A DNA stretch of 22,527 nt from a virus. This document shows positions 4,044 through 22,111 of the stretch, one piece after another. The stretch covers positions 1 to 22,527 of the IMG/VR virus record IMGVR_UViG_3300030106_004407. One strand, 5' to 3'. The notes under the pieces are model-generated. The model had not been told where the DNA came from and searched no databases. It saw nothing but the letters and a program-made list of their open reading frames with translations. The first letter of the stretch is position 1, and each line of letters opens with the position of its first letter. The translations under genes and the position numbers were made by a program.

Positions 4044-7000
4044 TATGTTCTCCTTGATAGTGCTTCTGTTATATCAATATCTCCGCTTTTGGCAAGTTGA
4101 GATCTATCTGATTGTGATAACGTGCCAGTTCCCGCAGAAGATATGTCAATGTTAAGAGCGTCTAATAGTTGATTACCACTACCACTAGGTGCGCTAGGCG
4201 CTGCAGGGACAGGTTTATCTACAGGATCTTCAGGTATAACAATAGGCTGTTCTCTATCTTCCAATATATCTAAAGGTCTTTCAAACAGACTATCAGGATT
4301 ATCAAAGAAAGGTCTATTAAGATACTTTTGAAATATTGAGGTTACTAAAGGAGATATTGAGCCCATTGGATTAGGCAGGCCTGCTATTCTAGCATTCTTA
4401 ACTATTGCTTGTATTTGACCCGATGTTAGTTTTAATGGAGAAAATCTATTCTGTAAAACGAACGCTCCCTCTTTCTTTCCTAGTCTTCTAATTATTTGTT
4501 TACGTATAACATTATCTGGTAGTCCTAAATTTTTAGCTGCTTCTATATCTTTAAACAAAGCTTGATCTGCTTTAAATTTTACTTCGTTAGCTTTATCAAG
4601 AGCTTTTACAATGTCTTCTGCGGTTGCGCCACGTTGAAATACCACACTTAATTCTCTATTTGCATTAGTTTTTGCGTCTTGATTTTCTTTTATTTTAAAG
4701 TTTAGTCCTCGTTCTACAAAAGGATCTTGTATTCTAAAACCAAATATGCCCATGAATTCACTACTAAAATCAAAAGTTCTTCCGTATTTATCTGGAGCAC
4801 CTACACCAGAAGCATACAGTCTTTTTAACTGAGAGTATCCTAAAGGAGACGCTCTTCCAAATAATTCTATGGTTCCCTTAAAAAATTTTTCTGTGCCAGA
4901 GTCAGATGGATTCCATATTCTAGCACCACTTTTCTTTTGACCATCTCTTGCTGTAACATCTAGTAACCACTCGGTAAGTATGGCCTCGGAAAAAAATGGT
5001 TGTGCTAATTCTTTTACCGCTGCAAAACCTGCATCATCAATCGCTTTCAATCCTTGCTCTTCTGATGCTCTGCCATACTCTCCAAGAGCTGCTCTCAAAG
5101 GTCTTGTTAATAAATCGTAAGCATTGGTATGAGAAAAATCTATGAAATGAATTTCTCCATCAGGTTTTCTAATTGGCACGATGTTAGAATTTTCTGACCA
5201 CTCAGGTAAAAATTCTTTCAAAGAATTTACTACTTTGTTTGAAACACCAAAACCTAATTGTCCTGCAAGAACTGCACCTTCACCCATGCCAACACCAAAA
5301 ACTCCTAATCCAGCTAATCTTTTCCATCCAACTGATTGTAAATTTGGATCATTGATTTCTTTAAAGCCCTGCCTTGCAACATTAATCCCTGTTCTAATTA
5401 CCTCTGCAGGAAAAGAAACAAAGTTACCTATAGGAGAAAAACGAAGTCCTCTAATAAAACTACCCACGTAATCATAGTTAGGTATATTGTTTCTTACTGT
5501 ATCTGCAGCTTTATTTTTTATAAATTCATCGTAACCTTTTCTTGTAAATAAATCGTCTTTTAATTGTCCATATTTAGTAGCTTCTTCTCCGTACTGAGCC
5601 ACGAATCTATTTACATCTGTTTTATATAAATCATCAAGAGCATCATGATATTTATTTTGTTCTGCAATATAATTTTGTATTTTAAAAAAATCATCCTCTG
5701 ATTGATACAATCCTCTTGCTACACTTCTTCCCTTTGACACAAAGCCTTGCGTGTCTCCGACTAAACCTTTAGCTGCTTTTTGACCTAATCTTCCAAACAA
5801 AGTATTCATTTGTCCTTCATATGTTAGATTGTGAGCGCCTGTTGAAATCTCATTTAACATTGATCTTAGATCTCCTAAGTTAGCGTTAGTATTAATGACA
5901 CCTCTTCCTTGTAATTCTTGAACGCTGTTAATGTATTTCTCAATTTGATTTAAACTCTTTTCACTTTTAAATAATTGTTTACCAAGATCAGATTCTATTT
6001 GGCTTTTTGTTTGACCTTTTACTATATCAAGAGCTTCTGTAAATGCAGGAAAAAATCTAGTTTTACCATCGATAACTCTTATCGGGCTATTAAAAAAGTT
6101 TCCGTTGATACCTGTAAATGAAAGAGCACTAATAATATTTCTTACATGTGTAAAAGGATTAAGTGTTGTTTTTGCTTCTTGAGTCAACGCTTTAAATGGT
6201 AGAAAAGAAACCTTGTAAATAGATCCGAGAGCGCCACCAAGAACTTCTTGAGGATTGAATTGATCTGAAATAGTCTTTGCTAACCTCTCTGTTGTATAAA
6301 CAGTTTTTCCTCCAAGATTCAAAGGTTTGTTAAATGCAACTCCACCTTGAGCAAAAGTTGGCTGGTCAAAAAAATATTTTCCTTCTCCAGTTTTTCTAAG
6401 GCGATCTATATATTTAGCCTCACCTAAAAGTTTAGATAGCTTTGCACCAGTTTCTAAAAAAGCTTCTGTAGGATTTCTTATTTCTCCCAATAGTTCACGT
6501 ATTGGTTTAGGAATATTTTGACGTGACTTAGCTATACCTGTGTCTATAGAGGTGTTTCTAATTATTGTATTCTTTGCCGCTTGTTCGTATCCTACATTAC
6601 CTGCTAATACTTTATTTATTTCATCATCCATCATTCTTGCAGCTTGATTATTTCTTGGCACAAATCTACCATCAACAATATCTCCAAGGCCCTGACCTTC
6701 TCTGGTAAGCACCTGATTAATAAATACTTTTGCCTTGTCTATCACTTCTCTTCCAGCAGGAGTATTGTATAAAGTTTCCATGTAGGCGTCTTTATTAGAA
6801 CCAAAAGCCCTGTAAGATCTGGTTAAATAATTTCCTATGTTAGCAGCTACCGTATCTGTAAAACCTTTTGCTATACCGGGTATGCCTTCTATTTTACCTG
6901 CACCCATCTCAACTATATCTCTACCTAAATCATCAATTGTTTGTCTCATTTTTTGTATTTCAGGAAGTATTTCTTTTGGTATTCCGAGTTTATTTATTTC

Positions 7001-8206
7001 GGCTAAAAGTTTTGCATCGTCTACATCTCTTAGAACTTTTTTAGTTTCACCTGTTATCTTACTACGCATAGTTTTTGCTAATCTACCACTAGTTAATAAA
7101 GAGTGAATATTTTCCATTAACTTTTCTCTTTCAGGTAGTGGAGTGCCATCCATCGTATTTTTAAACTTACCTGATTTATAAAGTCTAGTGACAGCTTGTT
7201 CTAATTTATTTACTTGTATTCTTACCTGTTGGTTTACGGCTCTCATGACATCAACTTTATTTCTAAAATCAAGAAACCCGTCTTTAGTCATGTCACCTCT
7301 TGGTCGAAGCTTACTTATTATTCTATCAAAGGCACGTACAATATTACTTTTATTAAATTGAAAATCATCTGGAAGAGTAACATATTCATCCACTTCTTTT
7401 TCTTCCATTCTACCAGTTCTTTTGTTTCTTCTTCTTACTATATTTCTTTGAACAAAAGTATTTGGTCCACCCGTTGCACTTCTAAACACACCTGCTGTTA
7501 TAGGTCCAACACTTTTAAGTGCTTTGCCTGTCAAAGGAATTATGGCTTTATCAAATAAAGAAAAGCCGAGAGCACCCTCTACTCCAAACTTAAATTTATT
7601 TTCTAGTTGACGGTATGCTTCTGCTCTACCTTTTTCTCCTTGGTTTTCTCTTGTCTTTGTAGGCCCCACTCCAAACATGTCTCCTATTGTGTCAACGTCA
7701 CCAGTGGATGCTGCAGCATCAGCAAGACCTGCTGCGGAATATCTTGTTATGTTGGGAACCTTTCCTAACACACCTAAATTTTTTGCTTTTAACAATGCGT
7801 TAGCACCTTTTAATGCCACACCACCTGGTACACCAAATTGTGTTAGAAGTTCTGTAACTGTGCCAGTCCACCTGTCATCGGCTAAATCTTCTAATTGTTT
7901 ATATAAATCTATACTATCAAAATATTTTTCTACTTTTGCAGCTTCGTTGGTTCCTAAACCTAGATCTAATAATAATGCACCAGTAGACACTATACCCTCT
8001 GCCGCTTTAAATGCGCCTGATCCTATGCCTGCAAGACCAGATTGAATTAAACCTGTGTCATTACTTTTGTCTTGTCCTTTGGTTGTGCTTGATGGTATTG
8101 TTTCTTCTTCTAAACCTAAACCTTGTAGTAGTTTATTTCCCGAAGTAAAAAGTTTATTGTCGTCTTCTTTTTCTAAACCAAGACCTCTTAGTAACTCATT
8201 TGCCAT
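4043..8206 (-). CDS. Giant internal virion / ejection protein (1387 aa)
   Basis: The largest gene in the window. The size, largely alpha-helical composition and position in a run of Gly/Ala/Gln-rich proteins match the very large internal core or ejection proteins of podoviruses (T7 gp16-type by analogy only). I see no lytic transglycosylase signature. The N-terminus carries a duplicated short motif (NELLRGLGLEKE at 3-14 and NKLLQGLGLEEE at about 24-35), and a related GNQLLDALNI occurs near the C-terminus. Hydrophobic Gly/Ala-rich stretches occur near residues 50-85 and 960-1000 and could insert in membranes. The gene starts three bases after the upstream stop with no obvious ribosome-binding site in an AT-rich context, so it may depend on coupled translation. 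It is probably a virion structural protein delivered with the DNA; the exact role is unknown. Confidence 0.82.
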   Translation of the reverse strand: MANELLRGLGLEKEDDNKLFTSGNKLLQGLGLEEETIPSSTTKGQDKSNDTGLIQSGLAGIGSGAFKAAEGIVSTGALLLDLGLGTNEAAKVEKYFDSIDLYKQLEDLADDRWTGTVTELLTQFGVPGGVALKGANALLKAKNLGVLGKVPNITRYSAAGLADAAASTGDVDTIGDMFGVGPTKTRENQGEKGRAEAYRQLENKFKFGVEGALGFSLFDKAIIPLTGKALKSVGPITAGVFRSATGGPNTFVQRNIVRRRNKRTGRMEEKEVDEYVTLPDDFQFNKSNIVRAFDRIISKLRPRGDMTKDGFLDFRNKVDVMRAVNQQVRIQVNKLEQAVTRLYKSGKFKNTMDGTPLPEREKLMENIHSLLTSGRLAKTMRSKITGETKKVLRDVDDAKLLAEINKLGIPKEILPEIQKMRQTIDDLGRDIVEMGAGKIEGIPGIAKGFTDTVAANIGNYLTRSYRAFGSNKDAYMETLYNTPAGREVIDKAKVFINQVLTREGQGLGDIVDGRFVPRNNQAARMMDDEINKVLAGNVGYEQAAKNTIIRNTSIDTGIAKSRQNIPKPIRELLGEIRNPTEAFLETGAKLSKLLGEAKYIDRLRKTGEGKYFFDQPTFAQGGVAFNKPLNLGGKTVYTTERLAKTISDQFNPQEVLGGALGSIYKVSFLPFKALTQEAKTTLNPFTHVRNIISALSFTGINGNFFNSPIRVIDGKTRFFPAFTEALDIVKGQTKSQIESDLGKQLFKSEKSLNQIEKYINSVQELQGRGVINTNANLGDLRSMLNEISTGAHNLTYEGQMNTLFGRLGQKAAKGLVGDTQGFVSKGRSVARGLYQSEDDFFKIQNYIAEQNKYHDALDDLYKTDVNRFVAQYGEEATKYGQLKDDLFTRKGYDEFIKNKAADTVRNNIPNYDYVGSFIRGLRFSPIGNFVSFPAEVIRTGINVARQGFKEINDPNLQSVGWKRLAGLGVFGVGMGEGAVLAGQLGFGVSNKVVNSLKEFLPEWSENSNIVPIRKPDGEIHFIDFSHTNAYDLLTRPLRAALGEYGRASEEQGLKAIDDAGFAAVKELAQPFFSEAILTEWLLDVTARDGQKKSGARIWNPSDSGTEKFFKGTIELFGRASPLGYSQLKRLYASGVGAPDKYGRTFDFSSEFMGIFGFRIQDPFVERGLNFKIKENQDAKTNANRELSVVFQRGATAEDIVKALDKANEVKFKADQALFKDIEAAKNLGLPDNVIRKQIIRRLGKKEGAFVLQNRFSPLKLTSGQIQAIVKNARIAGLPNPMGSISPLVTSIFQKYLNRPFFDNPDSLFERPLDILEDREQPIVIPEDPVDKPVPAAPSAPSGSGNQLLDALNIDISSAGTGTLSQSDRSQLAKSGDIDITEALSRRT

Positions 8207-11318: not shown

Positions 11319-11996
11319 ATGGCAGAACAAACGAAACGTGAATTCCAAGCGTTCAGACCTTTTGGTCCCACTATTTTTGCAGGATCATTACCAGAATCGT
11401 TAATAAAATTATTAGACGATAAAGCAACAGAAATTATGACTAATAAAAAAATGTCTAAAGATTGGGATCACTCAATGCATTTAGCGGGTAATGTTAAGCA
11501 AGAAGTAAGATATCCTCCAGCTTGGATGATATCAACTGAGTTTACACCCATGAGTAACTCTTTGCAAATGATCATACATAAATATTTAGAACATCCACCA
11601 ATGGTAAACACTATATCTCCAGATAAAGTAGATAAAATATTAATAACAAGCATGTGGGTTGTGTCACAATGGTCAGGAGACTTTAATCCCTCGCATGTTC
11701 ATGATGGTGATTTATCTGGCGTAATATATTTACGAATACCTCCAAGTTTAAAAGAGGAGTATGCAAAGGAGGATCATTTTCCATGTGTAGGAGATATTCA
11801 ATGGCAGTGTGGACAAGCTGCTACTTTTAATGGACATACATTTCAAGCAACGCCAAAAGTAGGAGATATTTATTTGTTTCCTTCTTGGCTTTCACATATG
11901 GTTTATCCATTTAGAACACAAGATGAGGAAAGAAGATCTGTGTCCTTTAATGTGACTATTAAAAGAAAAAAAGAGAAAGATGAGCAACAAATCTAA
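11319..11996 (+). CDS. 2OG-Fe(II) oxygenase-like protein A (TIGR02466/2OG-FeII_Oxy_5 type)
   Basis: Predicted non-heme iron dioxygenase, which would use 2-oxoglutarate and O2 to hydroxylate an unknown substrate. In the 225-residue protein the typical order of this family is seen: SHVHDGDLSGVIYL (residues 125-138, iron-site histidines H126 and H128), then VGDIYLFPSWLSHMV (181-195) with the distal histidine H193, and RRSVSFN (205-211) with the arginine expected to bind 2-oxoglutarate. The first motif reads HxH instead of the classical HxD. The start at 11319 is chosen because AGAGGT lies six bases upstream; earlier in-frame ATGs at 11304 and 11208 exist, but the latter would run through the opposite-strand promoter. 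The gene is first in the plus-strand block and overlaps the next by 17 bases. Confidence 0.86.
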   Translation: MAEQTKREFQAFRPFGPTIFAGSLPESLIKLLDDKATEIMTNKKMSKDWDHSMHLAGNVKQEVRYPPAWMISTEFTPMSNSLQMIIHKYLEHPPMVNTISPDKVDKILITSMWVVSQWSGDFNPSHVHDGDLSGVIYLRIPPSLKEEYAKEDHFPCVGDIQWQCGQAATFNGHTFQATPKVGDIYLFPSWLSHMVYPFRTQDEERRSVSFNVTIKRKKEKDEQQI

Positions 11997-12261
11997 TACA
12001 CCATTTCCAATGGTTAGAATAACATGGCATGACGCAAAAGATACAGAGACAGGTTGGTTACACATAAAAGAAATTATTTCTGCTCCGTTGGCCGTGTGCC
12101 AAGAAGTAGGATACATGGTAGTAAATAGTGACGACAAAATAGTAATTATGAGATCATGGTGTGTTGACAAAGACGATAATCATGGTGGAGGTGCAATAGC
12201 AATACCTCGTGGTTGGGTTAGAAAAATAGAATACTTAACAGTAGAATATGCAACACAATAG
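11980..12261 (+). CDS. Conserved-type small phage protein, unknown function
   Basis: A 93-residue protein containing MVRITWHDAKDTETGWLHI (residues 11-29) and later GGGAIAIPRGWVRKIEYL. I have the impression that this pattern is widespread in cyanophages and pelagiphages ('WxDA.d...gW', then 'aIPkg.v..i..L'), but I know no function. The composition suggests a small beta-rich domain. It overlaps the oxygenase before it by 17 bases and the oxygenase after it by 14 bases, so it belongs to the same transcript and is likely translated by coupling; no strong ribosome-binding site is visible. It could be an accessory or regulatory partner, but nothing in the sequence shows that. Confidence 0.78.
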   Translation: MSNKSNTPFPMVRITWHDAKDTETGWLHIKEIISAPLAVCQEVGYMVVNSDDKIVIMRSWCVDKDDNHGGGAIAIPRGWVRKIEYLTVEYATQ

Positions 12262-12772
12262 TAATACAGAATTTGTTATGTATGTTGATAATTTTTTATC
12301 AATTGAAACATTAGAATCATTACAAGAAACCTTTTTAAACATTAATTACGCAGAAGTAAAAAACCCAGAGGGTCAGATTTATGGCTATAGACATACCTTT
12401 CCGCACAGTTTTCATACAGATCCTTTGTTAAAGTTAATAAAAAATTATTTTTTTCCTAATAGAAATCTAGAGCCTATCTCAGTTAGTGCACACAAAAGAC
12501 AAAACAACAAAGAGCCTTTATTTCATGTAGACGTAGAAAAAGATAATGTTGCTAATTTTCTTTTATTTGTGAAAGGAAAACCTTTATTAAATAACGGCAC
12601 AGGTTTTATGACAGGTAAGTCTTTATCATCACACATAGGTTTCATTGAAAACAGAGCTTTATTTTTTAATGGTAGTAAAATACCACACTCAGATTTGCAA
12701 TCTTTTGGAGATAGCTCTGAAAGATATACACTTAATATTTTTTATAAAGATAGTAGTAGTGATAATAAATAA
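12248..12772 (+). CDS. 2OG-Fe(II) oxygenase-like protein B (prolyl-hydroxylase-like)
   Basis: A 174-residue predicted iron/2-oxoglutarate dioxygenase with the classical facial triad. The first motif is FHVDVEKDN (H93, D95), and the distal part is KIPHSDLQSFGDSSERYTLN (144-163) with H147 as third ligand and R159 as candidate 2-oxoglutarate-binding arginine. The final strand, YTLNIFYK, is typical of prolyl-4-hydroxylase-type double-stranded beta-helix folds. It is shorter than cellular prolyl hydroxylases, so it is probably a catalytic core only. The gene overlaps its neighbours by 14 bases on both sides. The substrate is unknown; protein side chains are possible because of the resemblance, but small molecules cannot be excluded. 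Sequence similarity to protein A is low by eye, so this is a separate subfamily. Confidence 0.83.
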   Translation: MQHNSNTEFVMYVDNFLSIETLESLQETFLNINYAEVKNPEGQIYGYRHTFPHSFHTDPLLKLIKNYFFPNRNLEPISVSAHKRQNNKEPLFHVDVEKDNVANFLLFVKGKPLLNNGTGFMTGKSLSSHIGFIENRALFFNGSKIPHSDLQSFGDSSERYTLNIFYKDSSSDNK

Positions 12773-13283
12773 AAAACATCTATTCGCGACAACATTACAA
12801 ATATTTCAATTTAATGACGAAGAGATGAAACCTTTAGTAGATGAAGTAAATAGTAAAAAAAATTTAATTACAAAAACATCCAGCTCACATAATTATTTTA
12901 CAGATTATAAAAACCCAATACAACTTTATGAGTATGAAAAATTAATTAATGACGTTGCAAATAAATATTCTAATGAGGGGCTAACATTGAATCTTTTAAA
13001 TTATTGGACGGCTATTTATGGTAATAATTCTACACATGGTGCACACCAACACGATTCAGTGGGTGTAAACTTTTCTACTGTGCTTTATTTAACAAATGGT
13101 GGTGCCACGACATTTTTATCACCGCATAATGCAACAAACCAAAGAGTATATGATGAAGAATCAATATTAGGTAAATTAGTTATTTTTCCCTCTACATTGT
13201 GGCATTACGTTTCATACAGCGGAGATTTAGAAAGAATAATTATTTCATCTAATATACAAATTTATGGTCAGAAAAATGGTTAA
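12759..13283 (+). CDS. 2OG-Fe(II) oxygenase-like protein C
   Basis: A 174-residue protein of the same broad superfamily as protein A. Key parts: GAHQHDSVGVNFSTVLYLT (94-112) with H96 and H98, GKLVIFPSTLWHYVSYSGD (138-156) with distal H149, and ERIIISSNI with R159. Like protein A it carries HxH where HxD is usual. The start is uncertain: I take GTG at 12759, just before an N-terminus reading HLFATTLQIFQFND, which resembles the start of related proteins. Translations starting further upstream run through the previous gene in another frame and look unnatural. The gene overlaps the preceding oxygenase by 14 bases and the following glycosyltransferase gene by 8 bases. The tight B-C-glycosyltransferase overlap suggests the three proteins are made together. 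Confidence 0.82.
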   Translation: MIINKKHLFATTLQIFQFNDEEMKPLVDEVNSKKNLITKTSSSHNYFTDYKNPIQLYEYEKLINDVANKYSNEGLTLNLLNYWTAIYGNNSTHGAHQHDSVGVNFSTVLYLTNGGATTFLSPHNATNQRVYDEESILGKLVIFPSTLWHYVSYSGDLERIIISSNIQIYGQKNG

Positions 13284-14058
13284 AATATTTATTGGAACTC
13301 CTTGCTATGGTGGATTAATAACAACTGAATACTTTAAAAGTTGTATGCAACTTGTAGCTCTCGCAGCCACTAACAAAATTGAATTACAGTTTGGAACTAT
13401 AGGTAATGAGTCTTTAATAACGAGAGCAAGAAATACTCTTGTTCAATTATTTATGGACGGTGACTACACACATCTTCTGTTTATTGATGCTGATTTAGCT
13501 TTTAATCCTGATTCAGTAATGAGGATGCTTGATTATGATAAAGATGTTGTAACTGGTATTTATCCAAGAAAAACCATAGATTGGATAAAAGTAAAAAAAA
13601 GACTAAAAGATAAACCAGATATTTCAGAAGATGAGCTATTGGCTGCCTCATTGCAATATAATTTAAATGTGAAAGATCCTAACAATATATTACTTGAAAA
13701 AGGCTTCATAGAAGTATTGGACGGACCTACTGGTTTTATGATGATCAAAAGAGAGGTGTTTGAACGTATGGCAAGAATATATCCGGATCTTAAATTTAAA
13801 CCAGACCAACACATTAATCAATCTCATGACAAAGAGTTTGATTACCATAAAACATCTGATTGGAACTATGCTTTTTTTGATACCATGATAGAGCCAAAAA
13901 CTAAAAGATATCTATCTGAGGACTACGCTTTCTGCCGTTTATGGCAAAATATGGGTGGCAAAATCTACGCTGACATAATGTCAGGTATGACTCACTACGG
14001 TAATTATGCATTTAGAGGCAATGTAGGAACTCAATTCTTGCCTCAAAACAATAAGTAA
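13276..14058 (+). CDS. GT-A type glycosyltransferase-like protein
   Basis: A roughly 260-residue protein with the features of a GT-A fold nucleotide-sugar transferase. It opens with MVKIFIGTPCYGGLIT, carries ESLITRARNTLV (a pattern typical of these phage proteins), then a DxD metal/nucleotide site (LLFIDADLAFNPDS, DAD at residues 71-73) and an acidic LSEDYAFCRLW motif (about 213-223) plus MTHYG near the end that fits the second metal-binding or catalytic part. Sugar donor and acceptor are unknown. I start it at 13276; an ATG four codons upstream (13264) is an alternative and neither has a clear ribosome-binding site. It follows directly on two overlapping oxygenases, so a joint hydroxylation-glycosylation function is a reasonable hypothesis. 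Fourteen bases separate it from the tail gene. Confidence 0.82.
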   Translation: MVKIFIGTPCYGGLITTEYFKSCMQLVALAATNKIELQFGTIGNESLITRARNTLVQLFMDGDYTHLLFIDADLAFNPDSVMRMLDYDKDVVTGIYPRKTIDWIKVKKRLKDKPDISEDELLAASLQYNLNVKDPNNILLEKGFIEVLDGPTGFMMIKREVFERMARIYPDLKFKPDQHINQSHDKEFDYHKTSDWNYAFFDTMIEPKTKRYLSEDYAFCRLWQNMGGKIYADIMSGMTHYGNYAFRGNVGTQFLPQNNK

Positions 14059-14072
14059 TTTATTATAAAACT

Positions 14073-15917
14073 ATGAAATTAGTGGATCTTAAGTTTAAAC
14101 CGGGTGTTGACAAACAAGATACTGCCTATTCTGCTGGTGATCAACGTAAGTATGTTGATTCTGACTTTGTAAGATTTCATTATGGTAAACCAGAAAGATG
14201 GGGTGGTTGGACAAATCTACCTAATCCTAATAAAACTATAGTAGGTGTTGTAAGAGACACTCACTCATGGGTAGGTTTAGATGGTTTAAGATATCTGGCC
14301 CTAGGCACAGATAGAAAACTATACATTTACAACGAAGGAGCAATGTATGACATAACTCCTATTCGTGAAACACAAGCTTTAACCAATCCTTTCACAACAA
14401 ATGGCACCACCACGGTGTCTGTAGCCGACACTGGTCATAACGCAATACAGGGAGATTTTGTAACTTTTGACTCTTTTTCATCAATTGATGGATTAGATAT
14501 GAATCAAGAATTTGAAATCATATCCATAACTGATGCAAATAATTACACAGTAACGCACACTAGTGCAGCATCTGGATCAACATCTGGTGGTGGTGGCTCA
14601 GGCAATGCAAAATATCAAATTAACGTAGGACCAGCAACATCAACGTACGGACTTGGATGGGGCACAGACACTTGGAGTAGTGGCACGTGGGGCACGGCTA
14701 GCTCTGCATCTGATGTCGTCATAGTGGGAAGAAACTGGTCATTAGATAACTTTGGCGAAGACTTAATTGCAACTGTTTTAGATGGTGGCACATTTATTTG
14801 GGACACGTCAGGAGGTTTAGCTTCAAGAGCAACAGCTTTGTCAAATGCTCCAACTGCATCAAGATTTAGTATTGTTTCAACAGATACAAGACATTTATTA
14901 ATATTTGGCACAGAAACTACAATCGGCACCCCTGACACTCAAGATGATCTATTTTTTAGATTTTCAGATAGAGAAGATGCAACAGACTACACACCTGTTG
15001 CTACAAACGAAGCTGGATCTTTGAGAATAACAGATGGATCAAAAATAGTGGGGGCCGTAAAATCATCAGGACAGATACTGGTTTGGACAGACACGTCATT
15101 GCACGGTATTCAATTTGTTGGCACACCTTTTACTTTTGGCCTTAGACAACTTGGTGCTAATGCTGGTTTAATTTCTCAACATGCAGCCATAGAAGTAAAT
15201 GGTAAAGCATATTGGATGTCTGATGATGCATTTTACCTTTACGATGGTGTTGTCAAAAAAATGCCATGTTCTGTTCAAGATTTTGTTTTTGATGATCTTA
15301 GCTACACAAACAAAAATGACATAGCTGTAGGATTAAACACAGCGTATAATGAAATAATTTGGTACTATCCCTCAGCTAATGCATCACAAATAGATAGAGC
15401 AGTTGCATATAATTATTTGGAAGGAACTTGGTACACTTTGAGTCTCGGTAGAACTACATGGCTTGGTGCTTACGTATATGAGAAACCAATAGCCACTGAG
15501 TACAACGCTAGCGCCACAGCTAATGTGTCCACCATACTAGGACTAACTGCTGGTTCATCTTTTGTATATGAGCATGAGTCTGGCAATAACCAAGCAGATG
15601 GATCAGCTATTACAGCATTCTTGGAAACAGGCTCTGTTGAAATAGCAGACGGAGATCAATTAATGTCGGTAAGTAAATTAGTGCCAGATTTTGACAATCT
15701 AGCGAACACAATGACAGCACAATTAACTTTAGAACAATATCCTCAATCCGCAGCTAACGTGACGACTAGTGGTTCTATTACTAACACAACAGAAAAAATT
15801 AATGTCAGAGGTAGAGGAAGAGCTGTTAAAATAAGGTATACAACTAATACAATAGATGATACACCTTGGAGACTTGGTTCACAGAAATTGCAGATAAGAC
15901 CAGACGGTAGAAGATGA
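14073..15917 (+). CDS. P22 gp10-like tail / packaged-DNA stabilisation protein
   Basis: A 614-residue probable tail-tube or tail-accessory protein. The order of elements resembles P22 gp10 family proteins: an N-terminal DSDFVRFHYGKPERWGGWTN, a propeller-like LALGTDRKLYIYNEG, a central LVWTDTSLHGIQFVG with FGLRQLGANAGLISQHAA, then YWMSDDAFYLYDGVVKKMP, and a C-terminal VRGRGRAVKIRYTTN with W..GS.KL.IRPDGRR. In P22, gp10 closes the portal channel and supports fibre attachment. Residues about 105-190 look like an inserted Ig-like domain (TVSVADTGHNAIQGDFVTFD) ending in a GGGGSG linker, as in many marine phages. There is no clear ribosome-binding site before the ATG. The end overlaps the next oxygenase as ATGA. 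Tail function is well supported; the exact gp10 equivalence is by pattern only. Confidence 0.84.
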   Translation: MKLVDLKFKPGVDKQDTAYSAGDQRKYVDSDFVRFHYGKPERWGGWTNLPNPNKTIVGVVRDTHSWVGLDGLRYLALGTDRKLYIYNEGAMYDITPIRETQALTNPFTTNGTTTVSVADTGHNAIQGDFVTFDSFSSIDGLDMNQEFEIISITDANNYTVTHTSAASGSTSGGGGSGNAKYQINVGPATSTYGLGWGTDTWSSGTWGTASSASDVVIVGRNWSLDNFGEDLIATVLDGGTFIWDTSGGLASRATALSNAPTASRFSIVSTDTRHLLIFGTETTIGTPDTQDDLFFRFSDREDATDYTPVATNEAGSLRITDGSKIVGAVKSSGQILVWTDTSLHGIQFVGTPFTFGLRQLGANAGLISQHAAIEVNGKAYWMSDDAFYLYDGVVKKMPCSVQDFVFDDLSYTNKNDIAVGLNTAYNEIIWYYPSANASQIDRAVAYNYLEGTWYTLSLGRTTWLGAYVYEKPIATEYNASATANVSTILGLTAGSSFVYEHESGNNQADGSAITAFLETGSVEIADGDQLMSVSKLVPDFDNLANTMTAQLTLEQYPQSAANVTTSGSITNTTEKINVRGRGRAVKIRYTTNTIDDTPWRLGSQKLQIRPDGRR

Positions 15918-16372
15918 TATATATTAAAGACCATGTTTTATCTAACGAAGATATTGATCAATTAAAGCCTTTTGTTGAAAAACAGGATTGGAATTCTTGG
16001 TATGAATCACTTCACGTCGAGATACCCTCAACACACAATATTGTGCAAAAAGTAAAAAATACAATAAATGCTGACTTTAACAACAGTCATCCATTATTTA
16101 ATGAAGTAGATTGGTCACAAATAGTAGTATATGATACAGGGTGCTCTAAAAATTTTCATTTAGACCATGCTTCAGACAAAACAACAGGCACATCTGTTAC
16201 TTTTTTAAATGAAGATTTTATTGGAGGCGAGGCTATTGTAGAGGGCGTACAAGTTGCTCCTATTAAAGGTAGAACTTATTACATGGACGGAAAAATGTAT
16301 AAACACGCTGTTTTAAATGTCATAAAGGGGTCCAGATTTACTTTAACATGCTGGTATAAGAAAAAAGATTAA
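15914..16372 (+). CDS. 2OG-Fe(II) oxygenase-like protein D (prolyl 4-hydroxylase type)
   Basis: A 152-residue predicted iron/2-oxoglutarate dioxygenase. The classical set is visible: KNFHLDHASD (H82, D84), a GGEA turn at 104-107, PIKGRTYYMDG leading to the distal histidine H131 in KHAVLNVIKGSRFT, and R141 as the 2-oxoglutarate-binding arginine. The GGE...P..G....(D)G...H.V..V..G.R pattern is that of prolyl 4-hydroxylase-like enzymes and of small phage members of that family. Its ATG overlaps the stop of the gp10-like tail gene (ATGA) and its stop overlaps the next start (TAATG), so it sits inside the tail-gene transcript. This position makes a virion protein a plausible substrate, but that is inference. 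Confidence 0.87.
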   Translation: MIYIKDHVLSNEDIDQLKPFVEKQDWNSWYESLHVEIPSTHNIVQKVKNTINADFNNSHPLFNEVDWSQIVVYDTGCSKNFHLDHASDKTTGTSVTFLNEDFIGGEAIVEGVQVAPIKGRTYYMDGKMYKHAVLNVIKGSRFTLTCWYKKKD

Positions 16373-16539
16373 TGGCTAAAATTACAATAACTAGATTACC
16401 TAACGCTACACCAGAGTATGATGCTGGTCAGTTTGATCAGATGATTAGATTACTTGATCAAATAATATTTTTATTAAATACAAACTATCAACAGGATATA
16501 AAAGAAGAATCAGAATCGGAGGGTTTTTTCCTTGGCTAA
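16372..16539 (+). CDS. Small tail-region protein (55 aa), unknown function
   Basis: A short gene translating to 55 residues that begins MAKITITRLPNATPEYDAGQ and continues with a predicted helix (DQMIRLLDQIIFLLN, residues 23-37). I have seen similar short proteins ('ITRLPnAtPEYd...fd.mIr.Ld.ii..LN') between tail genes of marine phages, without a known role. It starts inside the stop of the oxygenase before it (TAATG) and its 3' end overlaps the next gene by 8 bases, so its reality rests on strict coupling to both neighbours. A small structural or assembly protein is the likeliest explanation. Confidence 0.8.
   Translation: MAKITITRLPNATPEYDAGQFDQMIRLLDQIIFLLNTNYQQDIKEESESEGFFLG
16518..16523 (+). 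promoter_or_regulatory. Ribosome-binding site fixing a TTG start
   Basis: GGAGGG followed by eight bases and TTG at 16532. It is the strongest ribosome-binding site of the plus-strand block and lies inside the coding end of the 55-residue gene. It supports the unusual TTG start; the next ATG in frame is only eight codons further. Confidence 0.7.
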
Positions 16540-16915
16540 TACATTTAGAGGACCTATGTTGGATGTCACTTCGACAGACCTAACAACTTTAATAACTGTG
16601 CCAACAGCTAATCCTGGTGCAACGCCACCTGTTCCGCCAACTACTATAATAATTAAATCTTTAATTGTTTGTAATGACTCTGGTAGTGCTACACTTCTAG
16701 ATGTGCAAACAGTTAGAAGTTCTGCAACATTTAAACAGTTTCACCAAAAAAACATAGCTGCAGGAGCAACAGTGGATTTATTAAATCAGCACGACGGAAT
16801 TACTGGAGGAATGATTGTCTTGCAAGAATCTGACGTGTTGAAAGTACAAGCTAATGCAGCCAATCAAGTTCACATATCTGTGGCTAATATGGAGGTTACA
16901 AAAGGTCAACTTTAG
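16532..16915 (+). CDS. Probable virion protein, beta-rich, TTG start
   Basis: A 127-residue protein not assigned to a named family. It begins MANTFRGPMLDVTSTDLTTL and contains IIIKSLIVCNDSGSATLLDV (residues about 45-64) and a C-terminal half typical of a compact beta-sandwich, with the end reading MEVTKGQL. The motif 'iksl.v.N.s.s...v.v', then 'pa..t.dl......L..gD.l.v.a', recurs in small phage head-tail and decoration-type proteins; this one has LQESDVLKVQANAAN near the end. It begins with TTG, supported by the GGAGGG site. Position between tail genes favours a structural role. The precise role in the virion cannot be read from the sequence. Confidence 0.76.
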   Translation: MANTFRGPMLDVTSTDLTTLITVPTANPGATPPVPPTTIIIKSLIVCNDSGSATLLDVQTVRSSATFKQFHQKNIAAGATVDLLNQHDGITGGMIVLQESDVLKVQANAANQVHISVANMEVTKGQL

Positions 16916-16927
16916 AAAGGAAAAAGA

Positions 16928-17503
16928 ATGAAATTACAAGGTATGTTTATTACTCCTGTGTTTACCACAGAGTTAGAAAATAATTATAATTTAGAACAAA
17001 AACTTTATGATTTACAAAAACAAGATAAAGTTGGATCACCAAAATCAAACGTAAAAGGGTGGCACAGTAAAGAGGATTTGTACTTGCATGAAGGGTTTAA
17101 AAAAGTAACACAAGACATAATGTTTCAAGCACAAGAGTGTTTTAATGCATTAAGTGTAGAGAAAAAATATGGGCCTGAAATGACAGGTTTATGGGGTATG
17201 ATAAATCCACCGGGTGCTAGAAATACAGTTCACACACATCCGTTAAATTTTTTATCTGGAGTATATTATTTAAAAGTGCCAAAAAATAGTGGTAATCTTG
17301 TTTTCATAGAACCAAGACCACAAGCCGAGGTACTTGATCCGCCTAAAAATCAAGACTTGTCGGTTCATTTTGCACATAGTGTGCAGTGGGAGGCAAAAGA
17401 GAATAACTTGATTTTTTTCCCATCATGGTTACAACATGAGGTACAACAAAATAATTCTAATCAAGATAGAATTATTTTAAGTTTTAATTTAAGATGGAGA
17501 TAG
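16928..17503 (+). CDS. 2OG-Fe(II) oxygenase-like protein E (TIGR02466 type)
   Basis: A 191-residue protein closest of the six to the TIGR02466 pattern. Seen in order: GLWGMINPPGARNTVHTHP with H102 and H104 and then LSGVYYLKVP (109-118), FIEPRP (126-131), NLIFFPSWLQHEV with distal H160, and RIILSFNLRW with R171. The first motif is HxHP, not HxD, as in protein A. A clear AAAGGA site lies six bases before the ATG. The gene is preceded by a 12-base gap and followed after 4 bases by a small gene. Substrate unknown. Proteins of this type are common in marine myoviruses and podoviruses, and are usually annotated only from the domain. Confidence 0.87.
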   Translation: MKLQGMFITPVFTTELENNYNLEQKLYDLQKQDKVGSPKSNVKGWHSKEDLYLHEGFKKVTQDIMFQAQECFNALSVEKKYGPEMTGLWGMINPPGARNTVHTHPLNFLSGVYYLKVPKNSGNLVFIEPRPQAEVLDPPKNQDLSVHFAHSVQWEAKENNLIFFPSWLQHEVQQNNSNQDRIILSFNLRWR

Positions 17504-17507
17504 TAAA

Positions 17508-17762
17508 ATGCCAATAATAAAAAACGCTGAACAAATTGGAACAGTTACATTAGAGGATGGTAGAGTTGTTCCTAAATACAATGTAAAAACAGAGACGACA
17601 ATTACTAACATAGATACGGGAAAAGAATACGAGTCTGAAGAAGCTATGCAAGCCGATATAGATGATCCAAACACTTCTACAACCGCAGAAAAAATTAAGC
17701 GTGATGTAAAAGTATTTGCTCCATCATTAAAAGATATGTTAGGTCAGACTCCTAAGTCTTAA
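17508..17762 (+). CDS. Small acidic protein, unknown function
   Basis: An 84-residue protein I do not recognise. It opens MPIIKNAEQIGTVTLEDGRV and is rich in threonine, acidic residues and lysine, with no hydrophobic segment, so it should be soluble. A GGAGAT site, within the end of the oxygenase gene, lies about six bases before the ATG. It ends the plus-strand block: its TAA stop shares the palindrome TTAA with the stop of the convergent cysteine-rich gene. The likely role, virion-associated or regulatory, cannot be told. Confidence 0.72.
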   Translation: MPIIKNAEQIGTVTLEDGRVVPKYNVKTETTITNIDTGKEYESEEAMQADIDDPNTSTTAEKIKRDVKVFAPSLKDMLGQTPKS

Positions 17763-17914
17763 GATTTTTTACAATCACAATCATCACAACAATGCTGTTC
17801 TGTGTTCTTAATGTGTCTTTCAGTATCTCTTTCCACAGCTAATAGTCGTTCGTGGTATTTGCTCACCTTGTCTGCAAGGTAGGCAATGGCTTTATTTATA
17901 TCTTCATTTTCCAT
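17759..17914 (-). CDS. Cysteine-rich 51-residue protein, unknown function
   Basis: A short gene on the opposite strand to its neighbours. It translates to 51 residues: a charged helical part (MENEDINKAIAYLADKVSKY and on to residue 40) with coiled-coil-like spacing, followed by HCCDDCDCKKS, a cluster of four cysteines and a histidine within eight residues (41-48) that could bind metal, for instance zinc or iron. The ATG is preceded by AGGAG six bases upstream, supporting the start. The stop overlaps the convergent stop. The metal-binding idea is inference from the cysteine spacing; no family was recognised. Confidence 0.72.
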   Translation of the reverse strand: MENEDINKAIAYLADKVSKYHERLLAVERDTERHIKNTEQHCCDDCDCKKS

Positions 17915-18001
17915 ATTTTCTCCTGTGATTATTAATTTTGGTGAGAACCTAATGTAAGCATATTTTTTTGTTCTGCAATATAATTATTTTAAATTGTTTT
18001 C

Positions 18002-18030
18002 TTGACATCGATTTGGTGTTATAAATTAAT
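18002..18030 (+). promoter_or_regulatory. Sigma70-like promoter upstream of oxygenase F
   Basis: TTGACA (18002-18007), a perfect -35 hexamer, is followed after 17 bases by ATTAAT (18025-18030), matching four of six -10 positions. It lies in the divergent gap before the gene starting at 18058, which has an AAAGGA site six bases ahead of its ATG. On the opposite strand, TTGCAG and TACATT (17978-17951) are 16 bases apart and are only a weak match. Confidence 0.5.
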
Positions 18031-18057
18031 AAAGTATAAGATAAGAAAGGATTAAAT

Positions 18058-18705
18058 ATGGCTGGCTGGGAACTTGGGAAAAAAATTAAAACTAAAGCTA
18101 TAGTTATGGGAAAAATCATAAGAAAATATGAACTACCTTTAGATGAAATTGATGAATTAAATAATATTTATGAAAAAAATAAACATACTTTAGAACCATA
18201 TGGTAGCAAATTAGCTGGCAATATAGAAACAGAATTAGATGTAACTAATATGTTACCGAATGCAAAAATAATTTATACTATGTACGAATGCATGAAAGAT
18301 TGTGTGGCAGAAAACGGCAAACTTTTAAATACAAAAGATTATGAAAACGTAAAAGATTACAACATTACTTCTGCTTGGATAAATGATATGAAAGATGGAG
18401 AGTGGAATCCACCTCATACACACAATGTTACAAAGGAGGGATACGCCTCTGGTTGGTCAACAGTTTTATTTTTGAAAACACCTGAGATGAATATTAAAAA
18501 TGATTTACACAAAAATTTATTAAACGGAAGATTAACATTTACTGATGTTCACGGTGAAAAGGTAACATCGTTTAAACCAAAGGTGGGAGATTTTTACATA
18601 TTTGATGCTAAACATCAGCACTTAGTAATGCCAATACAATTAAAAAATCCTACAGAAACTAGAAGATCTTTATCTTTTAATTTTGAAATTACTCGTCAGC
18701 AATAG
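18058..18705 (+). CDS. 2OG-Fe(II) oxygenase-like protein F
   Basis: A 215-residue predicted dioxygenase of the TIGR02466-like branch. Visible: EWNPPHTHN (115-123) with H120 and H122, a strand WSTVLFLKTP, GRLTFTDVHG, then PKVGDFYIFDAKHQHLVMP with distal H188 (H186 is also possible) and RRSLSFNFE with R202/R203 to bind 2-oxoglutarate. As in A, C and E, the first motif is HxH. The N-terminal 60 residues are helical and differ from A and E. It stands alone on the plus strand between two minus-strand genes, with a promoter-like TTGACA element of its own, so it may be regulated apart from the other oxygenases. Its 3' end overlaps the convergent tail gene by 17 bases. Confidence 0.85.
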   Translation: MAGWELGKKIKTKAIVMGKIIRKYELPLDEIDELNNIYEKNKHTLEPYGSKLAGNIETELDVTNMLPNAKIIYTMYECMKDCVAENGKLLNTKDYENVKDYNITSAWINDMKDGEWNPPHTHNVTKEGYASGWSTVLFLKTPEMNIKNDLHKNLLNGRLTFTDVHGEKVTSFKPKVGDFYIFDAKHQHLVMPIQLKNPTETRRSLSFNFEITRQQ

Positions 18706-18994
18706 CACCGTGTTTACCAGCGACTAAATCAGCATGAAGAGCTTTTCCATGTTCTTCTGTGTCTTCAGGGTTAGCTGTAAATGGTGTCCATTCTTGTGTG
18801 TCGTCTCCTAAATGAGTCCATTTAGTTTCACATTCAATTACTTTTATAGTGTTACCGTTTTTATCAAGGACATCTACTATTATATGATTACCTGACTCGT
18901 CTTTAACAGATGCACCGTTTTCATCTCTTTTGAAATCTTTTAATGTATGCCATCTTGGATTTCTTACTGCTATTAATGTTGTATTGATCGCCAT
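18689..18994 (-). CDS. Probable tail-fibre-associated small protein
   Basis: A 101-residue protein with the look of a short phage tail-fibre companion: MAINTTLIAVRNPRWHTLKD at the start, a beta-hairpin-like middle (EVIECETKW region, about residues 50-60), and an acidic, His-containing end (FTANPEDTEEHGKALHADLV, about 72-91). I do not know a function. The ATG overlaps the stop of the upstream gene by one base (TAATG) and GAGG lies about eight bases before it. The stop is inside the coding end of the convergent oxygenase gene. As the last gene of the fibre operon it may assist fibre assembly, but this is position-based inference. Confidence 0.72.
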   Translation of the reverse strand: MAINTTLIAVRNPRWHTLKDFKRDENGASVKDESGNHIIVDVLDKNGNTIKVIECETKWTHLGDDTQEWTPFTANPEDTEEHGKALHADLVAGKHGAIADE

Positions 18995-19368
18995 TATGAT
19001 TGCCTCAAAAATACCGTGGTTTGTTGATCTGTACCAGCCGGATTGTTTGTATTACCCATTCTCACCCAAGTTCCACTTTGTGAAGGACCAGCATTACCCC
19101 CAGCATTAGATGCATACAAAGAGCCACCTCCAACTGTACCACCAAAAGGTCCTGACCATCCGTGACCGCCCTGATATTCTCTAAAAAAACCATAAGATCC
19201 AACATCAGCTCCACCTAATCCTGCTGTGCCTGCTCCAACAGCCGTTGCTGTCGGTGCTGGTAAATTAGTCAAATCTGCTCCTGAAATTTCAGGCAAATTA
19301 CCTGTTAATTTAGTTGCATCTAAAGTTTGTGTACCTGTAACGGTGGTACCACCTACGATTAAAGCCAT
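18994..19368 (-). CDS. Small Gly-rich tail-fibre-like protein
   Basis: A 124-residue protein. It opens MALIVGGTTVTGTQTLDATK, followed by LTGNLPEISGADLTNLPAPT, which is the N-terminal pattern I associate with short tail-fibre proteins of marine phages ('GGTTVTGTqtLda..LTG.LPaisGa.LTNLp'). The middle is a glycine/serine/asparagine-rich region and the end reads SGTWVRMGN...TTVFLRQS, typical of fibre C-terminal tips. AGGAG about eight bases ahead of the ATG and the one-base overlap with the previous stop support the start. It may bind a receptor or cap the fibre; not provable from sequence. Confidence 0.76.
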   Translation of the reverse strand: MALIVGGTTVTGTQTLDATKLTGNLPEISGADLTNLPAPTATAVGAGTAGLGGADVGSYGFFREYQGGHGWSGPFGGTVGGGSLYASNAGGNAGPSQSGTWVRMGNTNNPAGTDQQTTVFLRQS

Positions 19369-20582
19369 TATGCGATCTCCTCTAAATTAAACTTATATTT
19401 TTTACCATTTAATCTGTTCAAGATAAAGAGATTTTCGTCACCCTCTTGAATAGTCCAATGACCTGAAGTTCCATCAACTTCATTAGCTCTAGTTTTTGTA
19501 TTATTTAAATTTAAGTCACCAGTATATATGTCTCTCCACTGCAAAGTAGATGATCCTAAATCATGTGTATCATCAGCAGATGGTAAAACAGCACCACCAA
19601 AAGTAGCACCAGAATTAAATGTAGCATTTCCAGCAGCACTACCATCTATCGTGAGAAAAGTTGTGTCCGCACCACCATCAGTGCCTTTTAATATAATATC
19701 TGTATCATCCCCTTGAGCATCAATCGTAATATTACCAGCAGATGTTGCTAAAGTAGATGCAGCATCACCTGTCGCAATGTCATCTAATTTAGTTGTTGTT
19801 GAAACTGTTCCAAAAGAAAGAGTTCCTGCTCCATCAGTTTTAATAAATTGACCATCTGAACCATCACCAGTAGGTAATGTCATTGACGTAGTGCCAAAAC
19901 CAATTGCATCCATACGAACTGTGCCGTCAAAGAAAGCGTCTTTAAATTCTAAAGATGCTGTTCCAAGATCAATATCATTAGTTGTAGAAGGTGATAAAGC
20001 TCCATCTGATAATGTTATTTGATTTGCATTAGCAACTTTAAATGTAACTACGTCATCAGAAGCTGCTGAGATAGTTGTATCAGCATCAGCGTCTAAAGTT
20101 AATGTTTGACCGTTAAGATCAACTGGAGCAGTAACTGTTCCTGGTCCTGCAAAAACATCATACCAGTTTGTTCCATCCGTAGCGACTAGTCTAGTAGCTC
20201 CGTTTTCAATTGTTAAAGTGTTACCAGATGCACCAAGTCTTGCTGTCATAGCATAAGGACCTGAAGATCCAGAATCTGTTGTTGCGTTTGTAATTAAATA
20301 AATTTTTTGTGTAGCTGGGAATTGTGCAATTCTTACTCCACCATGTGCCCCTGTTAATCTTATGTGTGCGTTTCTCGCTTGGTTGTTTGCTTGAGATTGT
20401 GGTCCATCTCCATTCGTAAGAGTTGTGACCGCAGCGTCACCACAAGCTACATCTACGACACCAGCAATTGAAAACTCTAAAGATTGAGAAAAGTTATTGT
20501 TTGTAATAGTACCCCAGGTTCCTGAATTTGCACCAGTAGCTTGAAGCTCTATTCTTAAACTTGTCGAATATGTCGAACTCAT
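19368..20582 (-). CDS. Tail-fibre protein with trimeric-fibre repeats
   Basis: A 404-residue probable tail fibre. The N-terminal part (MSSTYSTSLRIELQATGANS, then GTWGTITNNNFSQSLEFSI) is the adhesion or base-plate-binding domain common in marine phages. The rest is threonine, aspartate and glycine rich, as expected for an elongated beta-helical trimer. Two copies of a fibre repeat are visible: DIDLGTASLEFKDAFFDGT (203-221) and THDLGSSTLQWRDIYTGDL (339-357). The end (HWTIQEGDENLFILNRLNGK) is a compact terminal domain. The start has AGGAG five bases before the ATG. A promoter-like element and an inverted repeat lie in the 44-base gap ahead. It should contact the host cell surface. Confidence 0.82.
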   Translation of the reverse strand: MSSTYSTSLRIELQATGANSGTWGTITNNNFSQSLEFSIAGVVDVACGDAAVTTLTNGDGPQSQANNQARNAHIRLTGAHGGVRIAQFPATQKIYLITNATTDSGSSGPYAMTARLGASGNTLTIENGATRLVATDGTNWYDVFAGPGTVTAPVDLNGQTLTLDADADTTISAASDDVVTFKVANANQITLSDGALSPSTTNDIDLGTASLEFKDAFFDGTVRMDAIGFGTTSMTLPTGDGSDGQFIKTDGAGTLSFGTVSTTTKLDDIATGDAASTLATSAGNITIDAQGDDTDIILKGTDGGADTTFLTIDGSAAGNATFNSGATFGGAVLPSADDTHDLGSSTLQWRDIYTGDLNLNNTKTRANEVDGTSGHWTIQEGDENLFILNRLNGKKYKFNLEEIA

Positions 20583-20591
20583 AATATCTCC

Positions 20592-20621
20592 TATATAAAG
20601 TTAAAAATTAAAGTTTGTCAA
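20592..20621 (-). promoter_or_regulatory. Promoter-like element ahead of the tail-fibre gene
   Basis: On the minus strand, TTGACA (20621-20616) is a perfect -35 hexamer; TATATA (20597-20592), 18 bases on, is a modest -10 match. It would start transcription close to or just ahead of the AGGAG site of the tail-fibre gene, which overlaps the TATATA edge, so the transcript leader would be very short. The match may be a by-product of AT-rich DNA. Confidence 0.3.
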
Positions 20622-20627
20622 AACTTT
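20610..20627 (-). terminator. AT-rich hairpin with T-run (possible terminator)
   Basis: A perfect 7-base inverted repeat, AAAGTTT and AAACTTT with a four-base TGAC loop, begins at the stop codon of the repeat-rich gene and, on the minus strand, is followed by AATTTTT. The layout is terminator-like, but only one G-C pair is present in the stem, so it would be weak. The loop holds the end of the TTGACA element. Confidence 0.35.
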
Positions 20628-22111
20628 TATGCAGCTTTATGGACCTCTGTCCAACTTATATCGCTGTTTGAGTCGTCTACCTCTGACCAGAAGGTGCCTT
20701 GTAGAGTACCAGTTGAACTTGTAACAGAATTACCAGTAAGTGTCAAAGTAGAACTTCCACTAACCGACACAGTTCCAGTGCTTGAAGTGGCAGAAACACC
20801 TGTAAAGCTATAGATAGAAGATTGACTTTCGTCCCCTAAAGATGATGTTAAACCATTACCTGATACTGCAATATTTACACTACCAACAAAACTCATTGAA
20901 CCACTTACAATATTAAGTCCAGTAGCTGAAAAAGCGTTTGCGTCTGCAGAAGGAGTGTTAGCTTGACCACCCATGCCTGAGTGATTAACACAATAGTAAT
21001 ATAAAGTAGGAGCACCAGTGGCTACAGTTATTTGCGTATAGGCACCAGCTTGTCCAGGAGTGCCGAATGTTGTTACTCCTGTAGTATATTCACTTCCTCC
21101 TCCATGTGTTCCGTCTGAAGTTTCTGAGAAGCGCAAACCATGTGTATTATTTGAACTATCTGCTTGATCGAAATAATACGTATTGCCTTCAGCTAGCTCT
21201 AAGGTTGGTTGTGGAACACCGTCTATCGCATAAATATTCGCTGTGTCAGAAGCGTTTCTCACTACTGTAACTGTTTTGGTAATAAACGAACCAGTTCCCA
21301 CTACCTCGACATCAGTTGAGACTGCCTCAGTTCCTAAAGAAGCTGTGTTAGATACCCCTGTTGGTGTAACAATTGCATTACCTACTGCAGTTACAGATCC
21401 CTCAGAAGCAGTAAGTGCATTACCTGATGGGAAAGCTGTCTTACCTATTTGAACAGACGCTGTGCCTATTGAAATATCTAATTCAGGTTCACTAGCAGCT
21501 ACAATAGTTAGTTGTGAATCTCCAGTAATAGAAAAGGTTCCTATAGATGAAGTTGCAACTAAAGACCCTGCTTCAGCCATAGATCCAATAGATCCTCTGG
21601 TAGCTGTTAAACCCACTCCTGTAGGTGTAATATTTACATCTGCTGTTGCTACAGATGTTCCTACCGATGATGTTAGAGCATTACCTGTAAATGCATACTC
21701 AGATTCTAATATATTCCAAAGGTTGTCACCCCATCCAATAAGTATACCTGTGTTTTGATTTGCACCACGGCCCCAACCAGATTGAGGGACACCTGTTGCT
21801 GTCTCATCACCCTGCTGTGCTTGTAAACCTAATCCTGTGGCTGTGACAGCTGAAGATCCTGTAACTGTTTCTGTTCCTAATGAAGCGGCAATATTATTGC
21901 CTGATGCGGTTACCTCTGCAACACCTGTACCGACTGCAGTCCCTAGAGACGCAGTTGTTCCTATCCCCGTAAGGGTAATATTACAATCACCTGTAGGTGA
22001 AAGTGATCCTGGAGATGAAGAGAGGCCATTCCCTGTAGCACTTACAGGCGCAAAGCTATCCCATGCGCCTGAGTTCCAAGTCTGTCGGCCCCATCCTTGA
22101 AGAGAGGCCAT
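20627..22111 (-). CDS. Repetitive tail/virion protein with cupredoxin-like domain
   Basis: A 494-residue structural protein. It opens with an aromatic motif (GWGRQTWNSGAW, residues 6-17), and related GWG motifs recur near 112 and 126. Most of it is a run of about 22-residue repeats (pattern 'TGNGLTaSLGT..v.G.a.v') at roughly 22-107, 139-272 and 393-470. Between them, residues about 276-386 look like a cupredoxin: a beta-rich segment with H324 (NNTHGLRF) and YYYCVNHSGMGG giving C374, H377 and M380, the spacing of the type 1 copper site in amicyanin. The C-terminus (FWSEVDDSNSDISWTEV) is again aromatic. AGGAG lies seven bases before the ATG. Copper binding is inference, but the ligand set is complete. 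Tail or fibre decoration is the likely role; whether the domain binds metal or is structural is unknown. Confidence 0.82.
   Translation of the reverse strand: MASLQGWGRQTWNSGAWDSFAPVSATGNGLSSSPGSLSPTGDCNITLTGIGTTASLGTAVGTGVAEVTASGNNIAASLGTETVTGSSAVTATGLGLQAQQGDETATGVPQSGWGRGANQNTGILIGWGDNLWNILESEYAFTGNALTSSVGTSVATADVNITPTGVGLTATRGSIGSMAEAGSLVATSSIGTFSITGDSQLTIVAASEPELDISIGTASVQIGKTAFPSGNALTASEGSVTAVGNAIVTPTGVSNTASLGTEAVSTDVEVVGTGSFITKTVTVVRNASDTANIYAIDGVPQPTLELAEGNTYYFDQADSSNNTHGLRFSETSDGTHGGGSEYTTGVTTFGTPGQAGAYTQITVATGAPTLYYYCVNHSGMGGQANTPSADANAFSATGLNIVSGSMSFVGSVNIAVSGNGLTSSLGDESQSSIYSFTGVSATSSTGTVSVSGSSTLTLTGNSVTSSTGTLQGTFWSEVDDSNSDISWTEVHKAA
20702..22048 (-). repeat. Tandem-like ~66-bp (22-codon) coding repeats
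   Basis: Within the virion gene, three blocks (about 21791-22048, 21296-21697 and 20702-20935) hold degenerate 22-codon units of the form 'a.GNGLTaSLGTe.v.G.a.v'. I count around eleven units by eye. They are diverged at DNA level, so not a simple satellite. The cupredoxin-like domain separates the second and third blocks. Confidence 0.6.

Follow-up and report, generated by a model that had tools for sequence, protein, structure and literature searches.

Large sets of 2-oxoglutarate (2OG)-Fe(II) oxygenase genes have already been described for marine phages. According to an outline report from 2022, HTVC023P-type phages carry eight non-orthologous, co-located 2OG genes (PMC9599517). For cyanophages, the published counts are 24 such genes in S-SCSM1 (PMC9602691), ten in S-CREM1 (PMC9964418) and, at dispersed genome positions, nine in S-SZBM1 (PMC9146016). 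Here we analyzed six 2OG oxygenase genes, A to F, on the viral record IMGVR_UViG_3300030106_004407 from IMG/VR, which over its whole length (positions 1–22,527) is referred to as the window. A first-pass annotation had remarked that such enzymes are known in marine phages, as the reports on HTVC023P-type phages and S-SCSM1 confirm. Multiple co-located phage 2OG genes are hence already published, and the window belongs to the same kind. Beyond this, it is as good as certain that A to F form part of a rapidly changing island of enzyme genes that is found throughout the lineage and lies in its tail operon. Its scaffold-and-slot organization, the wider set of inserted enzymes, the median of six oxygenases and the re-reading of a neighboring "ferrochelatase" were not found in the published accounts, as far as their text was available. 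The island and its flank read as follows.

11319–11996, plus strand: oxygenase A, 225 amino acids (aa), HxH type (H126, H128, H193, R205); first island gene, conserved
11980–12261, plus strand: x93, 93 aa, conserved, phrog_25889; overlaps A and B, same position in relatives
12248–12772, plus strand: oxygenase B, 174 aa, HxD type (H93, D95, H147, R159); prolyl-hydroxylase-like predicted fold
12759–13283, plus strand: oxygenase C, 174 aa, GTG start, HxH type (H96, H98, H149, R159)
13264–14058, plus strand: GT-A-like glycosyltransferase, phrog_1574; invariant DxD (D75, D77)
14073–15917, plus strand: gp10-like virion stabilization/tail protein, phrog_3287 (E 8e-79); island center
15914–16372, plus strand: oxygenase D, 152 aa, HxD type (H82, D84, H131, R141)
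16532–16915, plus strand: x127, 127 aa, weak phrog_1276 match; conserved in order in relatives
16928–17503, plus strand: oxygenase E, 191 aa, HxH type (H102, H104, H170, R181); conserved core member
17508–17762, plus strand: x84, 84 aa, small conserved protein directly 3' of E
18058–18705, plus strand: oxygenase F, 215 aa, HxH type (H120, H122, H188, R202); variable slot before the fiber genes
18689–22111, minus strand: tail-fiber-like genes with phrog_1141, phrog_892 and phrog_30742 matches; these close the island

Profiles place five of the six proteins in the 2OG-Fe(II) oxygenase fold superfamily and the predicted fold adds B, so that all six are members. Each has an uninterrupted reading frame, at 11319, 12248, 12759 (GTG), 15914, 16928 and 18058, respectively. 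In Pfam searches, A, C, E and F scored 71.6, 31.5, 87.2 and 39.9 bits against PF13759 and D scored 34.1 bits against PF13640, all above the curated cut-off of 27 bits that applies to either family. The PHROG profiles assigned A, C, E and F to phrog_81, a 2OG-Fe(II) oxygenase family (E 3.7e-31 for A, 2.1e-22 for C and 7e-23 for F), D to phrog_2297 and phrog_61, and B to phrog_274, which also matches D and E. The first-pass annotation had called A, C, E and F TIGR02466-like, a description that fits E, the sole member at 119 bits; with the cut-off at 62.5 bits, A falls just short (57.6), and C and F at about 30 bits stay well below. For B, the Pfam profile search gave no match, nor did tblastn against 50,697 phage records. 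Its AlphaFold2 model (mean predicted local distance difference test score, pLDDT, of 74; predicted template modeling score, pTM, of 0.74) matched 48 Protein Data Bank (PDB) chains at E ≤ 0.001. Among the matches listed, all were 2OG oxygenases and most were prolyl hydroxylases; the first ones include the viral collagen prolyl hydroxylase vCPH, OGFOD1, PHD2 and P. putida P4H, AlkB is among the weaker ones, and HygX was also matched. With middling confidence and TM-scores of about 0.5–0.6, the model supports a 2OG-oxygenase fold for B but not a substrate. The first-pass observation of six such genes at these positions thus holds. Neither B nor the ferrochelatase-like family treated below gave a significant profile–profile match to the D type, the profiles being too shallow, and structure decided instead.

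On the side, two PHROG families are labeled as endonucleases, phrog_274 as "DNA endonuclease V" and phrog_2297 as "DNA endonuclease"; both labels sit on 2OG-oxygenase-type proteins, for example at 12248–12772 and 15914–16372 of the window and at L089:7989–8465. D homologs in cyanophages carry the name "leprecan protein", and the same cyanophage gene is called so in sister records. The endonuclease names are thus likely misnamings.

As the first-pass annotation had stated, A, C, E and F carry the ligand pattern HxH..H..R, and B and D the pattern HxD..H..R; its division into two types is supported. B and D carry the canonical facial triad HxD/E..H; the other four have a conserved three-histidine variant, which is also present in the solved PF13759 relatives 2rg4 and 3bvc. 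These proteins from marine Rhodobacterales share HxH..H..R and the fold family with the window, but are bacterial and of unknown function. The four active-site residues were invariant across 44, 37, 7, 8, 55 and 8 orthologs (A to F, in this order), except for one E ortholog mismatched at the distal histidine and the arginine. A separate alignment of 27 B orthologs likewise left H93, D95, H147 and R159 all invariant. The basic C-terminal residue for the 2OG carboxylate is R205, R159, R159, R141, R181 and R202 in A to F, again invariant save in one E ortholog. Median ratios of nonsynonymous to synonymous substitution rates (dN/dS) against the window were 0.19, 0.05, 0.18, 0.22, 0.18 and 0.33, with dS possibly saturated in distant pairs. 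From the invariant ligand and 2OG-binding residues and the median dN/dS of 0.05–0.33 it follows that the genes are real and under selection, and with orthologs present in as many as 80 independent contigs, the six are not a product of chance.

The six are mutually divergent, as had been noted from the letters alone: in phmmer comparisons only the pairs A–F and A–E were clearly similar. E reached 87 bits against phage Mosig but at most 24 bits against the other window oxygenases, and D 87 bits against cyanophage ACG-2014d but at most 4 bits within the set. Because both score higher against other phages than within their own set, the oxygenases look as if drawn from a pool shared among marine phages and not produced by recent local duplication.

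In 80 IMG/VR contigs sharing the gp10-like gene, we found a conserved order of A, x93, the glycosyltransferase (GT)-like gene, the gp10-like gene, x127, E and x84, followed by fiber genes on the opposite strand. Accessory genes are inserted at the junctions of this scaffold and are gained and lost between contigs; at the E–x84 junction no insertion was seen in 53 contigs. Contig pairs with 95–98% gp10 identity had a mean Jaccard index of accessory groups of 0.45. Oxygenase types account for about 202 of the 257 inserted genes counted. The others are DUF6065-like proteins (19), virion-like proteins (14), a second glycosyltransferase-like family (8), carbamoyltransferase pieces (8), tryptophan halogenases (3) and methyltransferases (2). 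For each rare family the label comes from one or two representatives, and the second glycosyltransferase-like family, unmatched in Pfam, was named by eye. Pfam scores of inserted families other than the main oxygenase types were 306 bits (tryptophan halogenase), 175 bits (carbamoyltransferase C-terminus), 55 bits (methyltransferase) and 33.5 bits (JmjC). The 22 islands complete from A to the fibers hold 3–11 oxygenases with a median of six, and the window is hence typical. Four phage genomes, from isolates or otherwise complete, and a relative of 50.6 kb each have their PF13759 and PF13640 matches confined to a single segment no longer than about 5 kb.

Within the window, neighboring genes overlap by 17 bases (x93/A), 14 (B/x93), 14 (C/B) and 20 (GT-like/C). 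As the first-pass annotation had pointed out, the oxygenases are interleaved with tail genes: the gp10-like gene lies between them, and D starts on its stop in a 4-base overlap. The overlapping genes suggest joint translation. A promoter scan of the island found no excess over shuffled sequences.

Some inserts deserve mention in their own right. Among the inserts other than oxygenases, DUF6065-like proteins are the most frequent (L039:8449–9291 and 22 others). A tryptophan halogenase (PF04820, 306 bits) is inserted in the island at L056:2021–3469, and in phage HTVC008M a tryptophan halogenase directly adjoins a 2OG gene. The island carbamoyltransferases match PF16861 and PF02543 (L016:9597–10719, L009:4818–5940, L078:9711–10247) and in some contigs are split over two adjacent reading frames. 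In cyanophage S-SZBM1, the available text reads a carbamoyltransferase as part of pyrimidine synthesis (PMC9146016), a role that the PF16861/PF02543 family type does not suggest.

With 22,527 bases against the roughly 58–62 kb genomes of its relatives, the window presumably represents only part of the genome of a phage related to the HTVC023P-type pelagiphages. Its best core-gene matches are HTVC023P, HTVC027P and 023Pt_psg01, and the lake phage DSL-LC04 is closely related as well: the DNA polymerase matches these four at 48–55% and the gp10-like protein at 40–44%. Near relatives at the DNA level were not found among phage records. By analogy with these relatives, the host of the uncultured phage would be Pelagibacter. 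In addition to the polymerase and the gp10-like protein, the HTVC023P-type phages share with the window several non-orthologous, co-located 2OG genes (PMC9599517), and HTVC023P and HTVC027P also carry the glycosyltransferase-like protein; as far as the published outline goes, the islands of the window's clade hold more oxygenases. T4-like cyanophages resemble this clade in having PF13759 and PF13640 proteins, large mutually divergent sets, a halogenase and a carbamoyltransferase. In contrast to the single tail operon of the window, their 2OG genes are scattered in S-SZBM1, often near replication or photosynthesis genes, according to the accessible text (PMC9146016). In HTVC008M, gp068–gp072 comprise four consecutive 2OG genes and a "ferrochelatase" in less than 3 kb between baseplate and head–tail genes; in this T4-like myophage, however, the block is a single opposite-strand insert, whereas in the window's clade the genes are spread over scaffold junctions.

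Ferrochelatases adjoining 2OG genes have been reported for HTVC023P-type phages in the available part of the 2022 account (PMC9599517). The "ferrochelatase" gp67 of HTVC023P had no Pfam match and has an HxD..H motif, with H107, D109 and H160 invariant in 43 relatives. A model of the family with high confidence (pLDDT 93, pTM 0.89) matched 667 PDB chains at E ≤ 0.001, on top the P. putida P4H solved with EF-Tu; the best 50 of these 667 matches were all 2OG-type enzymes or uncharacterized relatives, and no ferrochelatase was among them. A 2OG gene adjoins the ferrochelatase-like gene in 74 of 80 further contigs. On the strength of the model we conclude that the pelagiphage "ferrochelatase" (phrog_2954; L086:10295–10915, which is HTVC023P gp67, L088:12057–12713, L051:14343–15041 and L093:2576–3193) is another protein of predicted 2OG-oxygenase fold. 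The published ferrochelatase–oxygenase partnership probably consists of two oxygenases, which removes a heme-iron story resting on an annotation.

As to the purpose of the island, its enzymes would be made late, together with the tail proteins, and the oxygenases would hydroxylate protein side chains, most likely those of virion (tail) proteins. Some hydroxyls or side chains might then be decorated by glycosyltransferase, carbamoyltransferase, halogenase or methyltransferase partners, and as the set turns over, virion surface or adhesin chemistry would change with it. Covalent protein decoration is pointed to by the location in the tail operon, the overlap with structural genes, the diversity with intact active sites and the partners of hydroxyl- or side-chain-modifying type. 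Taken as a whole, a late enzyme island modifying mainly virion proteins is the reading that we tentatively favor. Protein hydroxylation is the probable chemistry, and structural nearest neighbors that modify proteins, i.e., P. putida P4H with EF-Tu, PHD2 and vCPH, count in its favor. That virion proteins are the main target is a closely balanced call falling just on the doubtful side; the position of the HTVC008M block between baseplate and head–tail genes counts for a link to the tail. The first-pass annotation had taken the density of the genes as a sign of a modification programme and not of a stray metabolic gene. A programme is plausible in that relatives keep 3–11 oxygenases and add enzymes of modifying type to the same slots, and such numbers speak against a stray metabolic gene; the density itself is normal for this phage group.

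The glycosyltransferase-like partner scored E 0.0013 against PF00535, below the curated cut-off, and its profile matches the viral protein A197 (2c0n) at a sub-threshold E of 0.006. A197 we take to be a GT-A glycosyltransferase. The protein is kept in HTVC023P and HTVC027P at 35–36% with the DxD invariant, and from such sequence matches its fold would be GT-A-like.

Several points weigh against virion modification. No substrate of any of the oxygenases was identified. Searching the literature by family name turned up no biochemically characterized PF13759 or HxH-type member, and for this reason 2OG use by the HxH type is only inferred, from the naming of the family. Homologs in T4-like phages adjoin replication, repair or photosynthesis genes; 2OG-gene neighbors in these phages were also considered as general evidence for a tail role and rejected, as the neighborhoods are inconsistent. 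Finally, a partial Mantel analysis controlling for gp10 divergence found overall no association of oxygenase repertoire with fiber type, at low power (n = 18–19); one of four tests gave p = 0.041, uncorrected, with n = 18.

This independence from fiber type also suits a serious rival that we nevertheless hold to be rather unlikely, namely that host macromolecules are modified during infection, be it translation factors, ribosomal proteins or surface glycans blocking superinfection, with turnover as hosts differ. The P. putida P4H with EF-Tu as top structural match of the ferrochelatase-like family and the JmjC-type member found in islands fit such targets, and the glycosyltransferase, carbamoyltransferase and methyltransferase partners suit glycan tailoring. 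However, in this lineage the genes lie solely within the tail operon and overlap structural genes, whereas host-takeover genes are usually early. Improbable in our view is an auxiliary metabolic role, proposed for cyanophages by Sullivan et al. in 2010 (PMC3037559) and repeated since, in which 2OG would be drawn down or metabolites modified so as to shift the nitrogen or energy state. One enzyme would be enough for a 2OG drain, yet 3–11 divergent ones are kept, active sites are intact in the six families tested, and the islands lie in the tail operon and also contain enzymes not using 2OG. AlkB-like DNA repair or demethylation, which the weaker AlkB matches of the B model, uvsY–uvsW neighborhoods in cyanophages, a 2OG gene of phage Mosig flanked by the putative genes for UvsY and UvsW, and the "DNA endonuclease V" names might suggest, is very improbable, as the genes of this lineage are grouped with tail genes instead of repair genes, none of the members reaches the cut-off of an AlkB or DNA-oxygenase model in the Pfam search, and the endonuclease names belong to proteins with 2OG signatures.

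Returning to virion modification, we may speculate further that the late, exchangeable oxygenases, halogenase, carbamoyltransferase, methyltransferase and glycosyltransferases write a strain-specific covalent pattern on virion proteins. We regard such combinatorial decoration as unlikely; if true, it would be a post-translational diversification of phage particles. The scaffold-and-slot picture, together with isolates that have small islands, makes the substrate question directly testable.

Two genes on the minus strand deserve a remark. A 1387-aa virion protein (4043–8206) with a phrog_22602 match adjoins other minus-strand virion genes and is a probable internal or ejection protein. The fiber-like protein at 20627–22111 contains many degenerate TG-rich repeats, and its divergence among relatives is nearly uncorrelated with gp10 divergence (r 0.05–0.06).

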